From contig JAOQAG010000017.1 of NCBI GenBank assembly GCA_025963715.1, forward strand, positions 124,001-188,000: 64,000 nucleotides of DNA, read 5' to 3'. This DNA is from Bacteroidota bacterium (GTDB lineage Bacteria > Bacteroidota > Bacteroidia > 2-12-FULL-35-15). Made by a program: the position numbers and the translations under genes. A model generated the notes under the pieces. That model saw only the letters and a list, made by a program, of their open reading frames with translations, ran no database searches and was not told the origin of the DNA. Numbering within the stretch: the stretch's first letter is position 1; the number at the start of each line of letters is the position of its first letter. Shown here one piece after another: positions 1,133 through 18,361 of this stretch.

Positions 1133-2224
1133 ATGAAAATTTTAATTCTTTCGGATATAAATTCTGCCCATACCCAAAAATGGACGGTGGCATTGGCTCA
1201 GAAAGGACTGGAAATTGCAATTTTTAGCCTGACAGCACCGGAATCAGATTGGTATTTGGAGCATGGGATCATGCTTTTCGGATCTAAAAGGCAACAAGCC
1301 AACTCCAGTTCCAAGCTCGGTTATTTAAAATCTGTACCGGCTTTAAAATCTGCCATTGCTTCGTATCAGCCACAGGTCGTACATGCACATTATGCAACCA
1401 GTTACGGATTATTAGGTGCATTAACCGGCTTTCATCCTTTTGTAATTTCAGCATGGGGAAGCGATGTGATGGAGTTCCCACATAAAAATTTTATTAATAA
1501 AAAAATATTAAAATATAATTTCAAAAAAGCTGATGCGATTCTTGCAACCAGCCAGGTCCTGGTAGACGAGATAGGACATTTCAGTGCAAAAAAAGTATTC
1601 AAAATTCCTTTCGGCATCGACATCAATTTTTTCAAGCCCGCGGCAGCTGTTAACCCGCTTTTTCCGGAAGGAACGGTAGTGATCGGTACTGTAAAATCGC
1701 TGGAAAGCATTTATGGAACAGACATTTTAATTGCCGCCTTTAAAAAAATAAGAGACAAGTATCCTGATAAAAAAATCAAGTTATTGGTCGTTGGCGGAGG
1801 AAGCAAAGAGCAGGAATACAAAGCGTTGACTACATCGTTAAATCTCGATCAGGATGTTGTTTTTACAGGGAAAGTTAAATACGAAAATGTGCTCAATTAT
1901 CACAATATGATTGATATATTTGTAAATGTTTCACGGAACGAAAGCTTTGGTGTGGCAGTATTGGAAGCCGCCGCCTGCGAAAAGGTAGTGATCGCATCCA
2001 ATATTGGAGGGTTAACAGAAGTAGTGAAAAATGGAACGACGGGTTTTTTGGTCGCACCGGAAAACATACAGGAAACGGCAGATGCAATTGAAGAACTAAT
2101 TTTGAACGAATTTTTAAGGGTACGAATGGGGAAAGCAGGACGGGTATTCGTACAAAAACAATTCGATTTCAGCAGTAATGTGGAGGAAACCTACGCTGTT
2201 TACAAACAGGTGCTGACAAAATAA
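1133..2224 (+). CDS. GT4 family glycosyltransferase
   Basis: 363 residues with a GT-B fold pattern. The N-terminal half has HAHYATSYG and SAWGSDV, and the C-terminal half has the retaining GT4 E-x7-E motif in NESFGVAVLEAA near residue 265, followed by the SNIGGLTEVV donor-binding loop. No membrane segment is obvious. It likely transfers a nucleotide-activated sugar to the growing lipid-linked polysaccharide at the cytoplasmic face. It lies 9 bp after the GT2 gene and 47 bp before the acetyltransferase, in one operon-like run. Donor and acceptor are unknown. Confidence 0.9.
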   Translation: MKILILSDINSAHTQKWTVALAQKGLEIAIFSLTAPESDWYLEHGIMLFGSKRQQANSSSKLGYLKSVPALKSAIASYQPQVVHAHYATSYGLLGALTGFHPFVISAWGSDVMEFPHKNFINKKILKYNFKKADAILATSQVLVDEIGHFSAKKVFKIPFGIDINFFKPAAAVNPLFPEGTVVIGTVKSLESIYGTDILIAAFKKIRDKYPDKKIKLLVVGGGSKEQEYKALTTSLNLDQDVVFTGKVKYENVLNYHNMIDIFVNVSRNESFGVAVLEAAACEKVVIASNIGGLTEVVKNGTTGFLVAPENIQETADAIEELILNEFLRVRMGKAGRVFVQKQFDFSSNVEETYAVYKQVLTK

Positions 2225-2271
2225 ATGGAATAGAAATTAAGACAGAAATATAAATCATTAATCGCCCTCAA

Positions 2272-2820
2272 ATGACAAAGCCACCAAAACCAGGAATTGT
2301 AATAATAGGAGCAGGCGGACACGCTAAAGTGATCTGCGACGCTATTATTGCCGGGGATGAATACCACGTTGCCGGTTTTACAGATGCCGTTGTACCTGCA
2401 GACACACTTGTGCAATACGATTACCGCGTGATCGCACACCAGGATCATTTACAGGACATTACTAACCGTGCCGAATATTTTATTGTTGCCATTGGCAGCA
2501 ATCCGGTACGTGAAGAATTATATGAAAAAGCGCTGCAGTTTTTCAAACCGGTAAGCATCATTCATCCTACTGCTATCATCGCGCAAAGCGCTGAAATAAA
2601 GCTGGGAGCAGTTTGCCTTGCCGGTTCCATCGTCAATTCCAATTGCGTGATTTCCGAAAATGTCATCATCAATTCCGGTGCTGTCGTTGACCACGATTGT
2701 ATCATCGAAAAAAATGTGCACATCTCCATTGGCACGATGGTAGGAAGCAATTCAATTGTTGCGGAAGGGGTTACCACTTCGATCGGCGAGCGCATTGAAT
2801 CATTTTCAAAAATAAATTAA
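2272..2820 (+). CDS. NeuD/PglD-like sugar O/N-acetyltransferase, short form
   Basis: 182 residues. The N-terminus is a small nucleotide-binding domain (IVIIGAGGHAKVICDAI), typical of the NeuD/PglD family, which acetylates amino sugars or sialic acids using acetyl-CoA. The rest has left-handed beta-helix hexapeptide turns (for example IIHPTAIIAQSAEI and VISENVIINSGAVVDHDCIIEKNVHI), with the catalytic His expected in VVDHDCII. Family members usually run to about 205-220 residues and finish with further turns and a GNPA-type end. This one stops in ESFSKIN, so it is short at the C-terminus. With the DegT aminotransferase and PglC-like transferase in the same cluster, a bacillosamine-like sugar is a reasonable inference. 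Confidence 0.82.
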   Translation: MTKPPKPGIVIIGAGGHAKVICDAIIAGDEYHVAGFTDAVVPADTLVQYDYRVIAHQDHLQDITNRAEYFIVAIGSNPVREELYEKALQFFKPVSIIHPTAIIAQSAEIKLGAVCLAGSIVNSNCVISENVIINSGAVVDHDCIIEKNVHISIGTMVGSNSIVAEGVTTSIGERIESFSKIN

Positions 2821-2822
2821 GC

Positions 2823-3833
2823 GTGAAAACAGTTGCCATTGTCATCCCCTGCAGAAACGAAGAGAAGTACATTGCAAAGTGCCTCGATTCTATCTTAGCG
2901 CAGGATTACGATGTCTCGAAGATCAGCGTATATGTGTGTGACGGAAAAAGCACGGACGGAACGGCAGCAATCGTGAACGAATACGCGGGTAGAAATTCAA
3001 ATATATTTTTGCTCATCAACGAAAAACAAACCACGCCCTTTGCGTTGAACCTTGGCATTAAAGCTTCCACAGCCGATGTGTCCATTATTCTTGGTGCGCA
3101 TTCTGAGCTGTATCCCGATTATGTTTCCAATTGCATCGCGGCTTTCGCTCATGGCGATCTGATCGGATGCACCGGCGGCATCATCGAAAATGTGTACGAA
3201 AATGAAGTGGCGGAAGTGATCGGAAAAGCCATGTCGTCGGGATTTGGTGTGGGAAATGCGCATTTCAGGACAGGCAATAAAGACGGTTATGTAGATACCG
3301 TTGCTTTTGGCGCTTACAAAAAAGAAGTGTTTGAAACCATCGGCTTTTTTGATGAAGAGCTGATCCGTAACCAGGACGATGAATTTAATTTCCGGGTGCT
3401 TAAAAATAATTTTTCCATTTACCTGGCGCGTAACATCCGCTCCAAATATTATGTGCGTGCGGCATTCGACAAATTATTCAAACAATATTATCAATACGGC
3501 TACTGGAAAGTATACGTCAATAAAAAACACCGCACGGTAACCACAGCGCGGCAATTAGTACCGCTGGCATTTGTGCTTTTTTTACTGGTGGGTTTTATCA
3601 GTTCCTTTTTCAGTCACATTTTTTTATACCTGTTCCTTGCGGGATTAACCTCGTACGCGCTGTTATCCGCTTATAGCGCTGCCAGATTGAGCAGCAATAT
3701 CAAACAGACATTCCAGATCATGAAAGCATTTTTTATCCTGCATTTTAGCTACGGTATCGGCTATTTGCAAGGCGTGATCGATTTTTTTATTTTTCAGAAA
3801 CAGATCAAAAAAGAAGAAGTATTAACACGTTAA
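2823..3833 (+). CDS. GT2 glycosyltransferase, ExoA-like, membrane-anchored
   Basis: 336 residues from a GTG start 2 bp after the previous stop, which implies translational coupling. No upstream in-frame alternative is as good, because the domain begins at residue 4 (VAIVIPCRNEEKYI). The motifs YVCDGKSTDGT and the NQDDEFNFRV acceptor motif match ExoA-type succinoglycan glycosyltransferases. Two or three membrane segments lie in residues 240-325 (LVPLAFVLFLLVGF, LYLFLAGLTSYALL). The likely role is sugar addition during repeat-unit assembly at the membrane. It ends the first operon block: a 190 bp gap follows, with an AT-rich inverted repeat (arms 3830-3839 and 3859-3868). Confidence 0.88.
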   Translation: MKTVAIVIPCRNEEKYIAKCLDSILAQDYDVSKISVYVCDGKSTDGTAAIVNEYAGRNSNIFLLINEKQTTPFALNLGIKASTADVSIILGAHSELYPDYVSNCIAAFAHGDLIGCTGGIIENVYENEVAEVIGKAMSSGFGVGNAHFRTGNKDGYVDTVAFGAYKKEVFETIGFFDEELIRNQDDEFNFRVLKNNFSIYLARNIRSKYYVRAAFDKLFKQYYQYGYWKVYVNKKHRTVTTARQLVPLAFVLFLLVGFISSFFSHIFLYLFLAGLTSYALLSAYSAARLSSNIKQTFQIMKAFFILHFSYGIGYLQGVIDFFIFQKQIKKEEVLTR

Positions 3834-4025
3834 CAATTAATATTCTTCAAGCTATAAATAATTGTTAATTAATGTCTTGATCAGACTCTCTCCTTTTAAT
3901 TTTAATATTTAATTATAGAATATCCATAATTAGACAGCATATTCTATACATTCCTCTCAATTATAAAAAAATTAAGCACTTTTTGTTTAAATTCACACCT
4001 TATTAAACTCAAAACCATTACTACT

Positions 4026-13628: not shown

Positions 13629-14993
13629 TTGGATCATCAAAAAATAATTACCGCACAGCAGCTTTATTTTTCATCCGATGAAACCAAAAACATCGTATTC
13701 AGAAAAGCGCAGCTGAAAAAACTCAAAGCATTGCTTATTGCGAACGAACCGGCATTGTGCGAAGCCATCTATAAAGATTTTAAAAAATCAACATTCGAAA
13801 CCTACGCAACCGAATTAAGCCTGGTGTATCACGAAATTGATACAGCAGTTAAAAAGTTAGCACGCTGGAGCAGCCGTCAGCGAGTAGCCACCAACATGGC
13901 AAATTTTCCGGCAAAAAGTTACATTATTCCCGAGCCGTTAGGCGTAACATTTATTATGGGTGCCTGGAATTATCCCTACCAACTATCACTGGCGCCGGTA
14001 GTGGCAGCAATGGCTGCAGGCAATACTATTATTTTAAAACCAAGTGAAATCCCGGTTCACAGTTCCGCGATCCTCGCAAAGCTTATCAATGAACATTTTC
14101 CTCCGGATTATTTTACCGTGATCGAAGGTGGAGTAGAGGTAACCACCGGATTGTTAAAATTAAAATTCGATAAGATCTTTTTTACCGGCAGCACCACCGT
14201 TGGTAAAATTGTTTACAAAGCTGCCGCTGAACACCTCACGCCCGTAACGCTGGAACTGGGCGGCAAAAGTCCGGCTTTTGTTTTAAAGGATTGTAACATA
14301 AACCGCACAGCGCAACGCCTTGTATGGGCCAAATTTTTAAATGCCGGTCAAACCTGTATCGCGCCCGATTATGTATTGGTTGATCAATCCATTGAAAAAG
14401 AATTTTTAGAAGCACTGAAAAAATACATACAGCAATTTTATTCGGAAAATAACTTCGAAAATTATGTGCAGATCATCAACGATAAGAATTTTGAACGTTT
14501 GCTAAACCTGATCGAGCCAAACAAGATCTATTTTGGCGGCAATCATAACAAAACGGAACGGTACATCGCTCCAACGATCCTTCAAAATGTAAGTTTTAAC
14601 GACAAAGTAATGCAGGAAGAGATCTTTGGGCCCATTTTACCTGTGATCACGTTTACAGATTTAAATAAAATAACCGCGGAAGTAAAACAACATCCGAAAC
14701 CATTGTCGTGTTACGTTTTTTCCAATAATACAAAACAGGTTGAGCACTTATTACACACACTTTCTTTTGGTGGTGGCGCCGTAAACGATGCTGTGATGCA
14801 CATTTCAAACGGGCATCTTCCGTTTGGCGGCGTGGGTAACAGCGGTATGGGAAATTACCACGGAGAAGCAGGATTCAAAGCGTTTTCGCATTACAAAAGT
14901 ATTTTGCACAAGCCGTTTTGGTTTGAAGCAAACATGAAATACGCGCCTTATACCAGCTTAAAGTTAAAGCTCATTAAAAAATTACTCGGCTGA
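13629..14993 (+). CDS. ALDH3-type aldehyde dehydrogenase
   Basis: 454 residues from a TTG start 21 bp after the ClC gene; no ATG lies near enough to keep the N-terminal helix. The active-site Glu is in TLELGGKSPAF near residue 215 and the nucleophile Cys in NAGQTCIAPDYV near residue 249. The NAD(P)-binding segments PWNYPYQLSLAP and FFTGSTTVGKIV are present. Length and the PWNYP motif fit class 3 (fatty and aromatic aldehyde) dehydrogenases, which convert aldehydes to acids. A hairpin terminator follows at 15008-15032. Confidence 0.93.
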   Translation: MDHQKIITAQQLYFSSDETKNIVFRKAQLKKLKALLIANEPALCEAIYKDFKKSTFETYATELSLVYHEIDTAVKKLARWSSRQRVATNMANFPAKSYIIPEPLGVTFIMGAWNYPYQLSLAPVVAAMAAGNTIILKPSEIPVHSSAILAKLINEHFPPDYFTVIEGGVEVTTGLLKLKFDKIFFTGSTTVGKIVYKAAAEHLTPVTLELGGKSPAFVLKDCNINRTAQRLVWAKFLNAGQTCIAPDYVLVDQSIEKEFLEALKKYIQQFYSENNFENYVQIINDKNFERLLNLIEPNKIYFGGNHNKTERYIAPTILQNVSFNDKVMQEEIFGPILPVITFTDLNKITAEVKQHPKPLSCYVFSNNTKQVEHLLHTLSFGGGAVNDAVMHISNGHLPFGGVGNSGMGNYHGEAGFKAFSHYKSILHKPFWFEANMKYAPYTSLKLKLIKKLLG

Positions 14994-15007
14994 TTTTATT
15001 TGCAATA

Positions 15008-15032
15008 AATTCCACAGGTTTGTGGATTTTTA
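15008..15032 (+). terminator. Hairpin terminator after aldehyde dehydrogenase
   Basis: TCCACA, the loop GGTT, then TGTGGA followed by TTTTTAT, 15 bp after the TGA stop. This is a short but well-formed intrinsic terminator pattern. Confidence 0.6.
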
Positions 15033-15078
15033 TCATCATTTTGAATATAAAAAGCTACTTTTTTTACAATTTATGACG

Positions 15079-15086
15079 TAACTTTG
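15079..15086 (+). promoter_or_regulatory. Bacteroidota-type -7 box TAACTTTG
   Basis: It matches TAnnTTTG exactly. No clear TTTG -33 element is at the ideal distance, only a T-rich run. There is no gene downstream on this strand before 18528, only a non-coding stretch ending in a strong terminator near 15281, so it may drive a small RNA. Confidence 0.45.
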
Positions 15087-15092
15087 TGGTAC

Positions 15093-15281
15093 GATTATTT
15101 CTATTTCCCTGTGAATCCGACTAATAAAATAGTTCGTGAATAATTTAAAGAAATGAATAAAATTCTGGTCTGAATTTTGAGATATTAAATGTGCTTGCAC
15201 CCAGTTAAGTAGTAGTGGTTAGTGTTTAATTAGGGTAAGTAATGAGGGTTTCTGATAGTATCAGGACCCTTATTTTTTTGT
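15093..15281 (+). ncRNA. Candidate small RNA A with 3' terminator
   Basis: This is a stretch of about 190 nt between a TAnnTTTG box and an intrinsic terminator. The terminator is AGGGT, TT, CTGATA, G, TATCAG, G, ACCCT followed by TATTTTTTT (about 15243-15279). No ORF longer than a few codons is present; the one short frame, ATGAATAAAATTCTGGTCTGA reduced to its product, is only MNKILV. The 3' half shares the exact 12-mer AGTGTTTAATTA and the terminator layout with a second element ending near 15942. The boundaries are inferred. Confidence 0.4.
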
Positions 15282-15380
15282 AGTTACCTGAACGTCTATT
15301 TATTTTCGTTTCTCATTTCGAGTGGAGTCGAGAAAGGATTTACCGATATGTTTAATTGGAATTATAATTTTATTTTATGC

Positions 15381-15474
15381 TGTCATCCCGGGCTTGACCC
15401 GGGATCTCATAAATGTTTGCAGTCTTACCTGCCCGTTTTTAATTAACAGATCCCGGGTCAAGCCCGGGATGACA
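15381..15474. repeat. CCCGGG inverted-repeat pair
   Basis: Two facing units, TGTCATCCCGGGCTTGACCC on the left and its near-perfect complement ending GGGATGACA on the right, with a spacer of about 40 bp that includes ATAAATGTTTGCAG. The same spacer word recurs in the copies at 56741 and 62864. Confidence 0.85.
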
Positions 15475-15540
15475 GTAAATTGCTGAGCGCTGCTAATAAT
15501 TAAAATTCATCAGAGCTTTTTTTGTGTGAACCGTTTTCAA

Positions 15541-15566
15541 CTGTCATTTCGAGCGGAGTCGGGAAA
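15541..15566. repeat. TTCGAG...GGAGTCG short repeat
   Basis: TGTCATTTCGAGCGGAGTCG is followed by GGAAAGG. A second copy without the TGT lies at 15316-15340 (CATTTCGAGTGGAGTCGAGA), and a variant at 20782-20811 has a palindrome inserted after TTCGAG. Confidence 0.6.
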
Positions 15567-15589
15567 GGCAGTGCAAAATTCGTAATAAA

Positions 15590-15698
15590 GCCACAGATTC
15601 ACGGATTAAAAAGTATAAGGGAATCACACAGATTAAAAATCGCTTTGCGATTTAATCTGTGTAATAATTTTTAAGTAGAAAATCCGTGAATCTGTGGC
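15590..15698. repeat. CCACAGATT inverted repeat, about 110 bp
   Basis: The left arm starts GCCACAGATTCACGGATT and the right arm ends AATCCGTGAATCTGTGGC. Inside is a second dyad, ATCACACAGATTAAAAATCG and its complement around CGCTTTGCGATT. The whole element can fold into one long hairpin. Other copies are at 20974, 51844 and 55504. Confidence 0.85.
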
Positions 15699-15755
15699 AA
15701 AAACAGCTAACAATTTCAGCGTGTTTAGTAACTAAGAAGATTAAGTTTATTCTGC

Positions 15756-15945
15756 TGATAATCAGGAGAATGAAAGATTTTTTTTAGAAAATCAACCCAA
15801 ATTAAATCCGGGAAGATTTCAATCCCGTACATCACACGTTACACTTGGTGTAATTTCATGTTAGTAAGTGTTTAATTAATGTCTGTGGTTAGCATTAATT
15901 AATATTAACAAGGGTTTCCTCTCCTGGAGCCCTTGTTTTTATTTA
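15756..15945 (+). ncRNA. Candidate small RNA B with 3' terminator
   Basis: The 3' end is an intrinsic terminator, ACAAGGG, TT, TCC, loop, GGA, G, CCCTTGT, then TTTTTATTT (15907-15943). It shares with element A the 12-mer AGTGTTTAATTA and the same asymmetric TT/G internal loop in the terminator stem. A near-match -7 box TAAGTTTA lies at 15742-15749. A TTACAC...GTGTAA dyad lies at about 15840-15855. There is no ORF. The 5' end is inferred. Confidence 0.35.
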
Positions 15946-15961
15946 TACGGTACGTATATTT

Positions 15962-18361
15962 TTACTTACACTTATTGTCGTTGTAATCCTTTTTCACAAG
16001 CGGATTATCCAGTACCTGGAACGTTAAATACGGTTGCCCGAATAATTTACAATAACGGTCGTGATTTGCTTTTTCCGCTTTTTCCAGCGCGGTCACAAAT
16101 AAACGGGAATTAACCAGTTCCTGCTCCTGCGAGCAGAACGAAATAAACGCAAACAACAATTGCTCATCCGGTTTATCTTCTTTCACAAACGACGATAATA
16201 TACTGGAAGCAAATTTATAATCCTTGAAGCGGGCAAACACATACGATAATTTCAAGGCATTTTGCCAGGACCCGTCTTTAAAATTATAAAAAGCCTTGAT
16301 CCTGTTAATGCTCGCTTCCACAACCGGTGCGCCGGTTTCCATCGTGTCATACACATCAATGATCCTGAATTGCCATTCCGCATTCAGTGCATCCACATAT
16401 TTTTTCGGTACTTCCGTTTTATACATCGCATCGATCTTCGCCTGCATATCGTCCTGCGCTTTTTTATCGCCGATCGTGCTGTCCAGCTTCACAGCGCAAT
16501 ACAAATTATTGAATTTAATGTAATTGTTTGCCGGATCTAAAACCGCCAGTTTTTTCATCGCTTCAAAATCCTCATCATCCGCCACATTGCTGACCATATA
16601 ATGGTAAACCACCTGGTTGTTCAACAAACCGGAATATTTAGCATCGGCCGGGATCTGCATTTTTGATGGTGCTTCGGCTGTATATTTTTGGTCGCGCACC
16701 TGCTTGCCGATGTAGTACTGAATTTTATACGCCTGTTTCAGATCTGCTTTTTTCACCGCCTGGTTGAATTTGCTTACCGAGAATTTTTCTTCTTTCGGCC
16801 CGGTAATATCATACGTTACATCCATCACGATTTGTGCAAAACGCTCTTTTCCAAGGATCGGTTCCAGTTCGCCTGCCAGGTTTTTCGAATTGATCTCCTG
16901 GATCGCTTTTTCCTTCGTCATTTTTGCTAAATAATCATATTTGCCGTCTTCGGTTTCCATTTGGAACAGGTTCCAGGAGTCGCTTGTTTTTACGTTCGTA
17001 ACCACACCCGCTTTTTGCATGTTCGACAATGCTTTGATGATGCTTTCCGCACGTTTTTTCTGCAGGCTGGCATTCGCGGAAGCATCGCCTTCAATCGACG
17101 AATAAGCGGTGATATACAATCCTTCAATAAAGAAATCCGGTTCCTGCAAAGCATCTAAAAACGGCTGCAGGTCGGTAGGCTTGTAATCCGATTTGTTTTT
17201 TTCAAACGGAATGGAAAAGTTCAATAACGTAGATTCCGATTTAGGCTCAAACGGCGGCTTGCTGTAAGCATCGTCCTCCGGCATCAGCAGCATTGTAAGC
17301 GGACTGTTGGATTCCTGGTCGCCCTGTTCGATGTACGATTTGCGGATCGTTTTACATAATTTACCATCCTGGATCACCAGCAAATTAATTTCATAATCCC
17401 CTTTCAGTGTCGATGGGATCGTCCCGATCTGCACATCCAGCTTGGTTACTTTTTTGCCTTTTTTCTCCGGTTTTACTAAATTTTTACTCGCGATCTTGTC
17501 CTTCGTCATTGTTTTTTGAAGGATCCCCTTACTCAATAAATTATTATCGTAAATGTTGTATTTCGGGTTATCGTATTGTGCTTTTTGTACAAAATCGATC
17601 GCCAGACCATCCTTCGGTTTTTTGATCAGCTTGTTAAACGATTTCAGATCCGCATATTTCAGATACACTTTATTCCCTTTCACATAAATTCCTTTTTGTA
17701 AACCGTCATAATCCTTGAATTTATCGCAGTTCTTGCAGGTACGCGCATCCGGTGATGCAATTTTTTTATTCTTGGAAGTATAAGGCGTTTTTAATTCTTT
17801 TTTCATTTTAGCGCCATCGTTCACAATATTAAATCCGCCAAAAACCACGGAGATATATGCTTTTTTTCCGGTTTCATCCAGCTTCACCGATGGGCTTGCA
17901 AACACATAATTCCCGTTCTTGATGATCGCCAGTTCCCTTTTACCCATCTTCCATTTTGTGATCACGGCATCGGCAACATCCTTAGGGCTTGCAGCACTTT
18001 TCCCTTTTAATGCAGATACGGAGATCACCGTTTCTTCCGCATTTTTTGTTCCGCCCGAAGCGATCACCCGCTTTGCCGTTGTTTTGTATTTTCCTTTGCT
18101 GCCTTCCAGCTGCGCCTTGTTATTTTTTGCCATGTCATCCGCTTGCAGGCTGCTGGCTTTAGAAAGGATGTCGTTTGTTTCCAGCGTATCCAGGTTAAAG
18201 GAGATCCGCAGTGCGTTCAGTTCCTGCAGGATCAACTTTTCAGCTGCCGCTGTTTCCACCGTTTTCTTTTCGGAAGGATCGGTTTTAGAAGATTTTTTTT
18301 GAGAGAAAACAAAAGTACTTGTTGTAATAAATAACAGGAAGAGAGTAGTCTTTTTGATCAT
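15962..18361 (-). CDS. Envelope protein with CAP-like and OmpA-like regions
   Basis: 799 residues with a signal peptide (LFLLFITTSTFVFSQ, cleavage near residue 20). Residues about 35-180 resemble a bacterial CAP/SCP domain (ILQELNALRISFNLDTLE, ADDMAKNN, then ITKWKMGKRELAI and YISVVFGG), although the canonical catalytic histidines are not obvious. Residues about 378-460 resemble an OmpA C-terminal peptidoglycan-binding domain (FSIPFEKNKSDYKPTDL, ITAYSSIEGDASANASLQKK, RAESIIKAL). The C-terminal 300 residues look helical and TPR-like. It is probably periplasmic or outer-membrane-associated and murein-binding. Transcribed alone, divergent from accC with 166 bp between them. Confidence 0.7.
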   Translation of the reverse strand: MIKKTTLFLLFITTSTFVFSQKKSSKTDPSEKKTVETAAAEKLILQELNALRISFNLDTLETNDILSKASSLQADDMAKNNKAQLEGSKGKYKTTAKRVIASGGTKNAEETVISVSALKGKSAASPKDVADAVITKWKMGKRELAIIKNGNYVFASPSVKLDETGKKAYISVVFGGFNIVNDGAKMKKELKTPYTSKNKKIASPDARTCKNCDKFKDYDGLQKGIYVKGNKVYLKYADLKSFNKLIKKPKDGLAIDFVQKAQYDNPKYNIYDNNLLSKGILQKTMTKDKIASKNLVKPEKKGKKVTKLDVQIGTIPSTLKGDYEINLLVIQDGKLCKTIRKSYIEQGDQESNSPLTMLLMPEDDAYSKPPFEPKSESTLLNFSIPFEKNKSDYKPTDLQPFLDALQEPDFFIEGLYITAYSSIEGDASANASLQKKRAESIIKALSNMQKAGVVTNVKTSDSWNLFQMETEDGKYDYLAKMTKEKAIQEINSKNLAGELEPILGKERFAQIVMDVTYDITGPKEEKFSVSKFNQAVKKADLKQAYKIQYYIGKQVRDQKYTAEAPSKMQIPADAKYSGLLNNQVVYHYMVSNVADDEDFEAMKKLAVLDPANNYIKFNNLYCAVKLDSTIGDKKAQDDMQAKIDAMYKTEVPKKYVDALNAEWQFRIIDVYDTMETGAPVVEASINRIKAFYNFKDGSWQNALKLSYVFARFKDYKFASSILSSFVKEDKPDEQLLFAFISFCSQEQELVNSRLFVTALEKAEKANHDRYCKLFGQPYLTFQVLDNPLVKKDYNDNKCK

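Follow-up and report, generated by a model that had tools for sequence, protein, structure and literature searches.

An aldehyde dehydrogenase gene and a convergent gene for a protein of 799 amino acid residues are separated by a gap of 968 bp, which raises the question of whether this gap carries two related small RNAs (sRNAs) and, if so, which part the two share and on what that part might act. The window, that is, the whole stretch of DNA analyzed (64,000 nt), lies on contig C7 of a 4.91-Mb genome. The length of the gap, as given in the preliminary description, agreed with the stops of the flanking genes (14993 and 15962), and three open frames of at least 50 codons, each of 50-54 codons, were found within it. 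For the 799-residue protein, the closest named record was JAOQAD010000041.1 (Bacteroidetes bacterium isolate RYN_273, a metagenome-assembled genome), with 85% identity. The two units in the gap, namely A and B, and the genes that flank them are located as follows.

13629-14993, plus strand: aldehyde dehydrogenase gene (PF00171)
15200-15235, plus strand: hairpin of unit A, stem 15203-15211 / 15223-15231, 9 pairs, 3 of them G-U
15200-15202 / 15233-15235, plus strand: CCC/GGG extension of the unit A stem
15212-15222, plus strand: loop of unit A, 11 nt, GTAGTGGTTAG
15215-15222, plus strand: loop core of unit A, GTGGTTAG, the proposed seed
15221-15232, plus strand: 12-mer AGTGTTTAATTA in A, covering the loop end and the 3' arm
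15867-15878, plus strand: 12-mer AGTGTTTAATTA in B, covering the 5' flank and the 5' arm
15872-15902, plus strand: hairpin of unit B, stem 15872-15881 / 15893-15902, 10 pairs
15882-15892, plus strand: loop of unit B, 11 nt, TCTGTGGTTAG
15885-15892, plus strand: loop core of unit B, GTGGTTAG, the proposed seed
15962-18361, minus strand: gene of the 799-residue protein, without a Pfam match, convergent on the gap

Both units have an AT-rich hairpin, whose 11-nt loop ends in GTGGTTAG, a few bases 5' of a predicted intrinsic terminator. In 816 kb of the same genome, GTGGTTAG was found at 11 sites (both strands), and it was borne by such a hairpin only at A and B, where 9 and 10 consecutive pairs enclose the 11-nt loop; at the other nine sites, there were four pairs at most. 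At least nine pairs around an 11-nt loop were present at 230 of 813,761 positions (0.03%) of this sample. When A and B were aligned on the loop with the corresponding hairpins of two congeners (G009 and G019, see below), the consensus nnnGTGGTTAG was obtained. It is highly probable that A and B are siblings.

The preliminary description had based their kinship on a shared 3' module, in which an exact 12-mer was followed by a terminator. The 12-mer AGTGTTTAATTA was confirmed in both stretches and was found nowhere else in the 4.91-Mb genome. A 12-mer present twice in 64 kb with up to one mismatch was, however, obtained in 16 of 100 shuffles, and such a match is thus not rare. As a homologous register the 12-mer was rejected: in the two congeners, the loop is kept, as is most of the pairing, but the AGTG is not. 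The 12-mer arises because the AT-rich arms of the two hairpins resemble each other. Of the preliminary description, two related, terminator-ended and probably non-coding units with a shared 3' module were supported, whereas the module as given was not, the conserved part being the loop. The shared hairpin loop is the stronger non-random feature.

The predicted terminators and the candidate promoter boxes of the two units are given below.

15079-15086, plus strand: TAACTTTG, candidate -7 promoter box for A, fitting TAnnTTTG by reading alone
15242-15279, plus strand: predicted intrinsic terminator of unit A (from the fold)
15742-15749, plus strand: TAAGTTTA, weak candidate -7 box for B, a near match to TAnnTTTG by reading alone
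15803-15810, plus strand: TAAATCCG, alternative -7-like box for B, suggestive only
15907-15945, plus strand: predicted intrinsic terminator of unit B with its T-rich tail (from the fold and a terminator scan)

In the predicted terminator of A, 14-15 pairs interrupted by a one-base bulge form the stem, and TTTTTTT follows; the predicted terminator of B has 12 pairs, again with a one-base bulge, followed by TTTTTATTT. A terminator scan of both strands returned five terminator-like sites (0.6 expected in shuffles); B was listed and A was not, probably since the scan allows no bulge. Terminators were hence predicted where the preliminary description had placed them, but the sequence build that it took to be common is not conserved in the congeners, which keep the presence of a terminator only. 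The exact TAnnTTTG box at 15079 and the near match at 15742 are also as described. No support was found for lengths of about 190 nt, for which the promoter-box matches were the sole basis, and the congeners do not conserve the 5' halves. In G009 and G019, the boxes TAAATCTG and TAAATCCG, respectively, lie about 30 nt 5' of the hairpins, and a block, GTGCTAAATCYG, is common to both genomes about 30 nt before the hairpin; this block is possibly the promoter, in which case the RNA would be about 100 nt rather than 190 nt long.

The distribution of the units was analyzed by DNA searches, model searches and pattern searches. When 59 genomes were searched with B, matches were obtained in G009 (94% over 34 nt, E 6e-8) and G019 (92% over 37 nt, E 3e-7), and the next best match had an E value of 0.0013. 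In both genomes, the hairpin adjoins the 3' end of the gene orthologous to that of the 799-residue protein, is oriented towards it, and is followed by a stem-loop with a T-rich tail of different sequence. Conservation in relatives, by which the preliminary description had proposed to judge the units, was accordingly found for the hairpin and terminator, adjoining the same neighbor gene in 2 of 35 congeners, and not for the 12-mer. In the alignment of A, B, G009, G019 and a doubtful fifth sequence (G020), 45 of 50 cells were paired and 7 were changed on both sides; the covariation was 0.55, compared with 0.32 in shuffled and at most 0.22 in slid alignments. In the same five sequences, two other measures, namely pairs changed on both sides (96/500) and further pair types (235/500), were not above shuffles.

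Two models were used for the searches: R2 was built from B, G009 and G019, and R1 includes the G020 row. In 36 genomes of the genus, strong R2 matches were confined to the three source genomes, and the exact pattern was found in the same three of 198 genomes; with one mismatch, the pattern gave 9 matches in the 198 genomes, compared with 13 for the reversed control, which is the chance level. R2 did not detect A at E values up to 10 (216 kb searched), A being recognized by the 8-nt loop core and the pairing, and no convincing third copy was found in the same genome with R1 and R2. When A was used for the DNA search of the 59 genomes, the best match beyond its own copy had an E value of 0.0013 over 27 nt, which was taken as chance; A appears, among the genomes searched, to be a copy found solely in its own genome. 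In these model searches, 150 first-look candidates were scored in many genomes, so that members can be missed. In G010, which has 86% identity to the neighbor gene over the C-terminal 199 residues and 24 bp to the next gene (L134), B was absent beside the orthologue and R2 gave no match; likewise, R2 found nothing at a record with 82% identity (L128).

Several weaker candidates were rejected. G020 is probably a chance match (R2 score of 21.5 bits, E 0.064 in 216 kb); it was absent from the R2 genome search, and its loop overlaps a promoter-like box, TATATTTG. The best weak R2 match (G029:C117, L102; E 0.026) is an AT-rich hairpin with another loop, located downstream of a ribosomal protein gene pair that is, by eye, of the rpsL-rpsG type. 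Each of the further weak R1 and R2 matches with loci in the 36 genomes was, by eye, without at least one of the three features (loop, stem and terminator); open frames were checked for seven R2 loci. A possible third copy in the same genome, C26:77370, has no hairpin of the A/B kind.

The surroundings of the units differ among these genomes. In G019 (L127) and G010 (L134), a gene for a 37-kD nucleoid-associated protein (PF04245) lies between the gene of the 799-residue protein and the next gene, which in L127 is an aldehyde dehydrogenase gene (PF00171); the PF04245 gene is present in G009 too. In the window, unit A and a set of repeats occupy the place of this gene. The repeats, which the preliminary description did not include, extend over 15303-15698, between the two units and outside both.

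15303 and 15534: copies of a 35-bp direct repeat
15380-15475: REP-like inverted repeat with 33-bp arms, of the GATCCCGGGTCAAGCCCGGG type
15590-15698: second inverted repeat, 18-bp perfect GCCACAGATTCACGGATT, enclosing a smaller inverted repeat

An 816-kb sample of the genome contained 21 copies of the arm word of the REP-like repeat, three of them in the window, and the core word of the repeat at 15590-15698 occurred twice in the 816-kb sample, both times within the window. A similar REP-like repeat is located upstream of B in G019.

The complement of the loop, CTAACCAC, was then located in the whole genome, in which 31 sites were found, two of them being A and B. The word is rare overall, its reverse having 192 sites, yet it is enriched before starts. 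At 16 of the 29 sites outside A and B, an ATG follows within 24 nt downstream. By eye, 11 of these 16 are gene starts, and nine are so by a strict rule in which the ATG is the first of a frame of at least 100 codons; the site begins 8-23 nt before the start codon. The other five lie inside open frames of 134-535 codons, and the remaining 13 of the 29 were counted as not at starts, the count covering ATG starts only.

The baseline was taken from the 32 nt before starts in 816 kb. At such positions were 58 of 5713 sites of 279 permutations of the word, 4 of 106 for permutations with CTAA, 10 of 229 for those with TAA, and 12 of 319 for one-mismatch neighbors, the range for comparable words being 1-4%. 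The probability of 9 in 29 is 8e-7 at 3.8% and 0.02 at an assumed baseline of 15%. Of the reversed control word, 30 of 82 rows were examined, and none of 25 sites was at a start. Markov models of order 1-3, from whose training the four sampled target leaders were left out, gave 1.0-1.7 expected leader sites per genome (P of at least 9, 8e-7 to 8e-5), and an order-4 model trained on leaders including the hits gave 4.6 (P 0.008 for at least 11). Among words of similar expectation (1875-3944 in the sample), 2, 1 and 5 reached at least 8 at orders 1, 2 and 3, the strongest being the promoter-box words TATATTTG and TATTTTTG. The sampled stretches came partly from contigs with known sites, so that the sampled leader counts of CTAACCAC are inflated and the whole-genome counts are not.

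In all 11 leaders, the base after CTAACCAC is an A (six) or a T (five). An A at this position matches the loop of B (U before GUGGUUAG) and a T matches that of A (A before GUGGUUAG), a match that is weak by itself because leaders are about 70% A+T. The duplexes predicted for the loop with the target leaders ranged from -11.4 to -14.2 kcal/mol, and the leader sites were 0.58-0.95 unpaired. Of 607 sampled leaders, 13 reached -11 kcal/mol with A and 12 with B; four of those leaders hold CTAACCAC itself.

Of the 11 predicted targets, the one in L179 is an acyltransferase and that in L173 a TPR protein, and the other nine had no Pfam match at E 0.001; the target in L230 is cut by the end of its locus. 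A signal peptide or lipobox was recognized by eye in seven (L199, L204, L163, L173, L230 and both L231 genes). At L231:1503-2300, two neighboring genes for secreted proteins have nearly identical leaders and signal peptides, and the mature parts are unrelated; because leader and signal peptide are shared, the pair was counted as one event, which leaves ten independent cases. The nine targets outside this pair are mutually unrelated, except that L173 weakly matches L229 (E 2e-4).

For seven targets, homologues from G009, G010, G019, G029 and G033 were compared, and the word was present in none of their 16 leaders, eight of which came from the B-bearing G009 and G019; the targets L189, L204 and the L231 pair were left out of this comparison. 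By eye, CTAACCAC was at starts at none of nine sites in G009 and at two of five in G019 (a third being ambiguous), that is, in the B-bearing congeners; where no B hairpin was found, it was at starts at one of four sites in G010 and one of 11 in G029. The regulon, if real, belongs to the source species, and the same loop in G009 must then act otherwise. In three congeners (L291, L292 and L294), a leader block, TTCGTTAATTGCAGT, stands directly before the ATG of the acyltransferase gene; the leader of this gene in the source genome differs from that block and carries CTAACCAC.

The shared hairpins, the conservation of the B hairpin and loop, the predicted terminators and the enrichment of the complement before starts were established by computation. 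Based on these results, we are inclined, with moderate confidence, to read A and B as sibling trans-acting sRNAs whose hairpin loop would pair with translation-initiation regions. Each unit would be a short transcript closed by its intrinsic terminator, and the AT-rich hairpin 5' of the terminator would present the 11-nt loop, with the last eight bases, GUGGUUAG, as the seed. In about 11 mRNAs, the 5' leader would be paired with the loop at CUAACCAC, over 8-10 bp that begin 8-23 nt before the start codon and lie within the ribosome footprint, and translation initiation would most likely be blocked by such pairing. B would be the older copy, kept beside the gene of the 799-residue protein in three species; the A loop would favor leaders reading CUAACCACU, and the B loop those reading CUAACCACA. 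Against this reading count the failure of R2 to detect A, the two pair measures that were not above shuffles, the shortness of the duplex, the absence of B beside the gene in G010, the lack of the word in the homologous leaders and its distribution among the starts of the congeners. More tentatively, a lineage-specific regulon might be envisaged, in which B was duplicated to A, the 8-nt address was gained independently by unrelated genes, many of which encode secreted or lipid-anchored proteins, and the base after the address picks the sibling.

The absence of CTAACCAC from the 16 homologous leaders, and from all starts in G009, where the B loop nevertheless shares this core, would also be expected if the sibling sRNAs were real but their loop bound a protein or other RNAs, the CTAACCAC leaders having another cause, for example a leader element read by a regulator. 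This appears rather unlikely: the word is the exact complement of the loop and was derived from it before the leaders were inspected, it is rare in the genome (31 sites), and in all 11 leaders it is followed by the A or T that would pair with the B or A loop, which, at about 70% A+T, is a weak point. It is improbable that B is a mere terminator region with an AT-rich palindrome (the end of the 799-residue protein gene, or an operator) and that the likeness of A to it is due to chance or to an AT-rich composition. AT-rich palindromes do arise easily, the terminator of B is sited at the end of the convergent gene, and A was not detected by R2; however, conservation covers the loop and not the arms alone, and the palindrome in the DNA is broken by a G-U pair in G009 and by mismatches in G019 while most of the RNA pairing is kept. 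Moreover, in B, G009 and G019, it is the sRNA side that carries the T-rich tail, and chance sharing of both loop and stem is improbable given the count of GTGGTTAG sites in 816 kb. The repeats at 15303-15698, with an arm word found 21 times in 816 kb, would suit decayed intergenic sequence without a transcript, but they lie between the units and not inside them, and the B hairpin is conserved at the same place in two other species, so that this reading is very improbable.

Read as sibling trans-acting sRNAs, A and B would belong to a known kind; two loci with a shared structure and seed were found in one genome (816 kb of 4.91 Mb). FopS and GibS of Bacteroides thetaiotaomicron are described as paralogous sRNAs with intrinsic terminators, mostly intergenic, whose pairing sites on several mRNAs are close to the start codon; many of these mRNAs encode outer-membrane SusC-like transporters, and translation repression was demonstrated in vitro; FopS has 14 members, with the seed R1' in a single-stranded 5' stretch (PMC11697453). 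These sRNAs are probably the closest in working to A and B and comparable in effect, the pairing of A and B being a predicted one. They share the phylum, the intergenic position and the paralogy; for A and B, terminators are predicted and the complement of the loop is enriched before starts. A and B, unlike FopS, are two members and have the proposed seed in a hairpin loop next to the terminator and not in a single-stranded 5' stretch. In an Rfam 15 scan of the window, three tRNAs were the only matches at the gathering score; at 14950-16000, with E values up to 5, none of 20 matches was FopS or GibS (the copy may lack a FopS model), and six matches with E below 0.01 were all on the REP-like repeat. 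Because the seed placement differs and no Rfam family matched, A and B were not assigned to FopS/GibS.

Five highly similar sRNAs in one genome, the csRNAs of Streptococcus pneumoniae, target comC (PMC4507080). They resemble A and B as similar sRNAs in one genome; they belong to another phylum, and the sequence comparison was limited to the Rfam scan. Among the papers listed by literature searches, none described the A/B RNA, and those listed for the loop letters GUGGUUAG concerned eukaryotic RNAs. LhrC is an sRNA with a loop seed that acts at translation starts; A and B would be alike in this respect, and LhrC belongs to another phylum, the comparison of sequences again being that of the Rfam scan.

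Regulation by sRNAs in the Bacteroidota is known mainly from Bacteroides. Here, sequence alone yielded a proposed seed for an uncultured lineage, along with the address that it would recognize and a list of predicted targets. In the comparison with the congeners, the putative sRNA is kept and the target sites are not, which, if true, would offer a direct test of the gain of an sRNA regulon.
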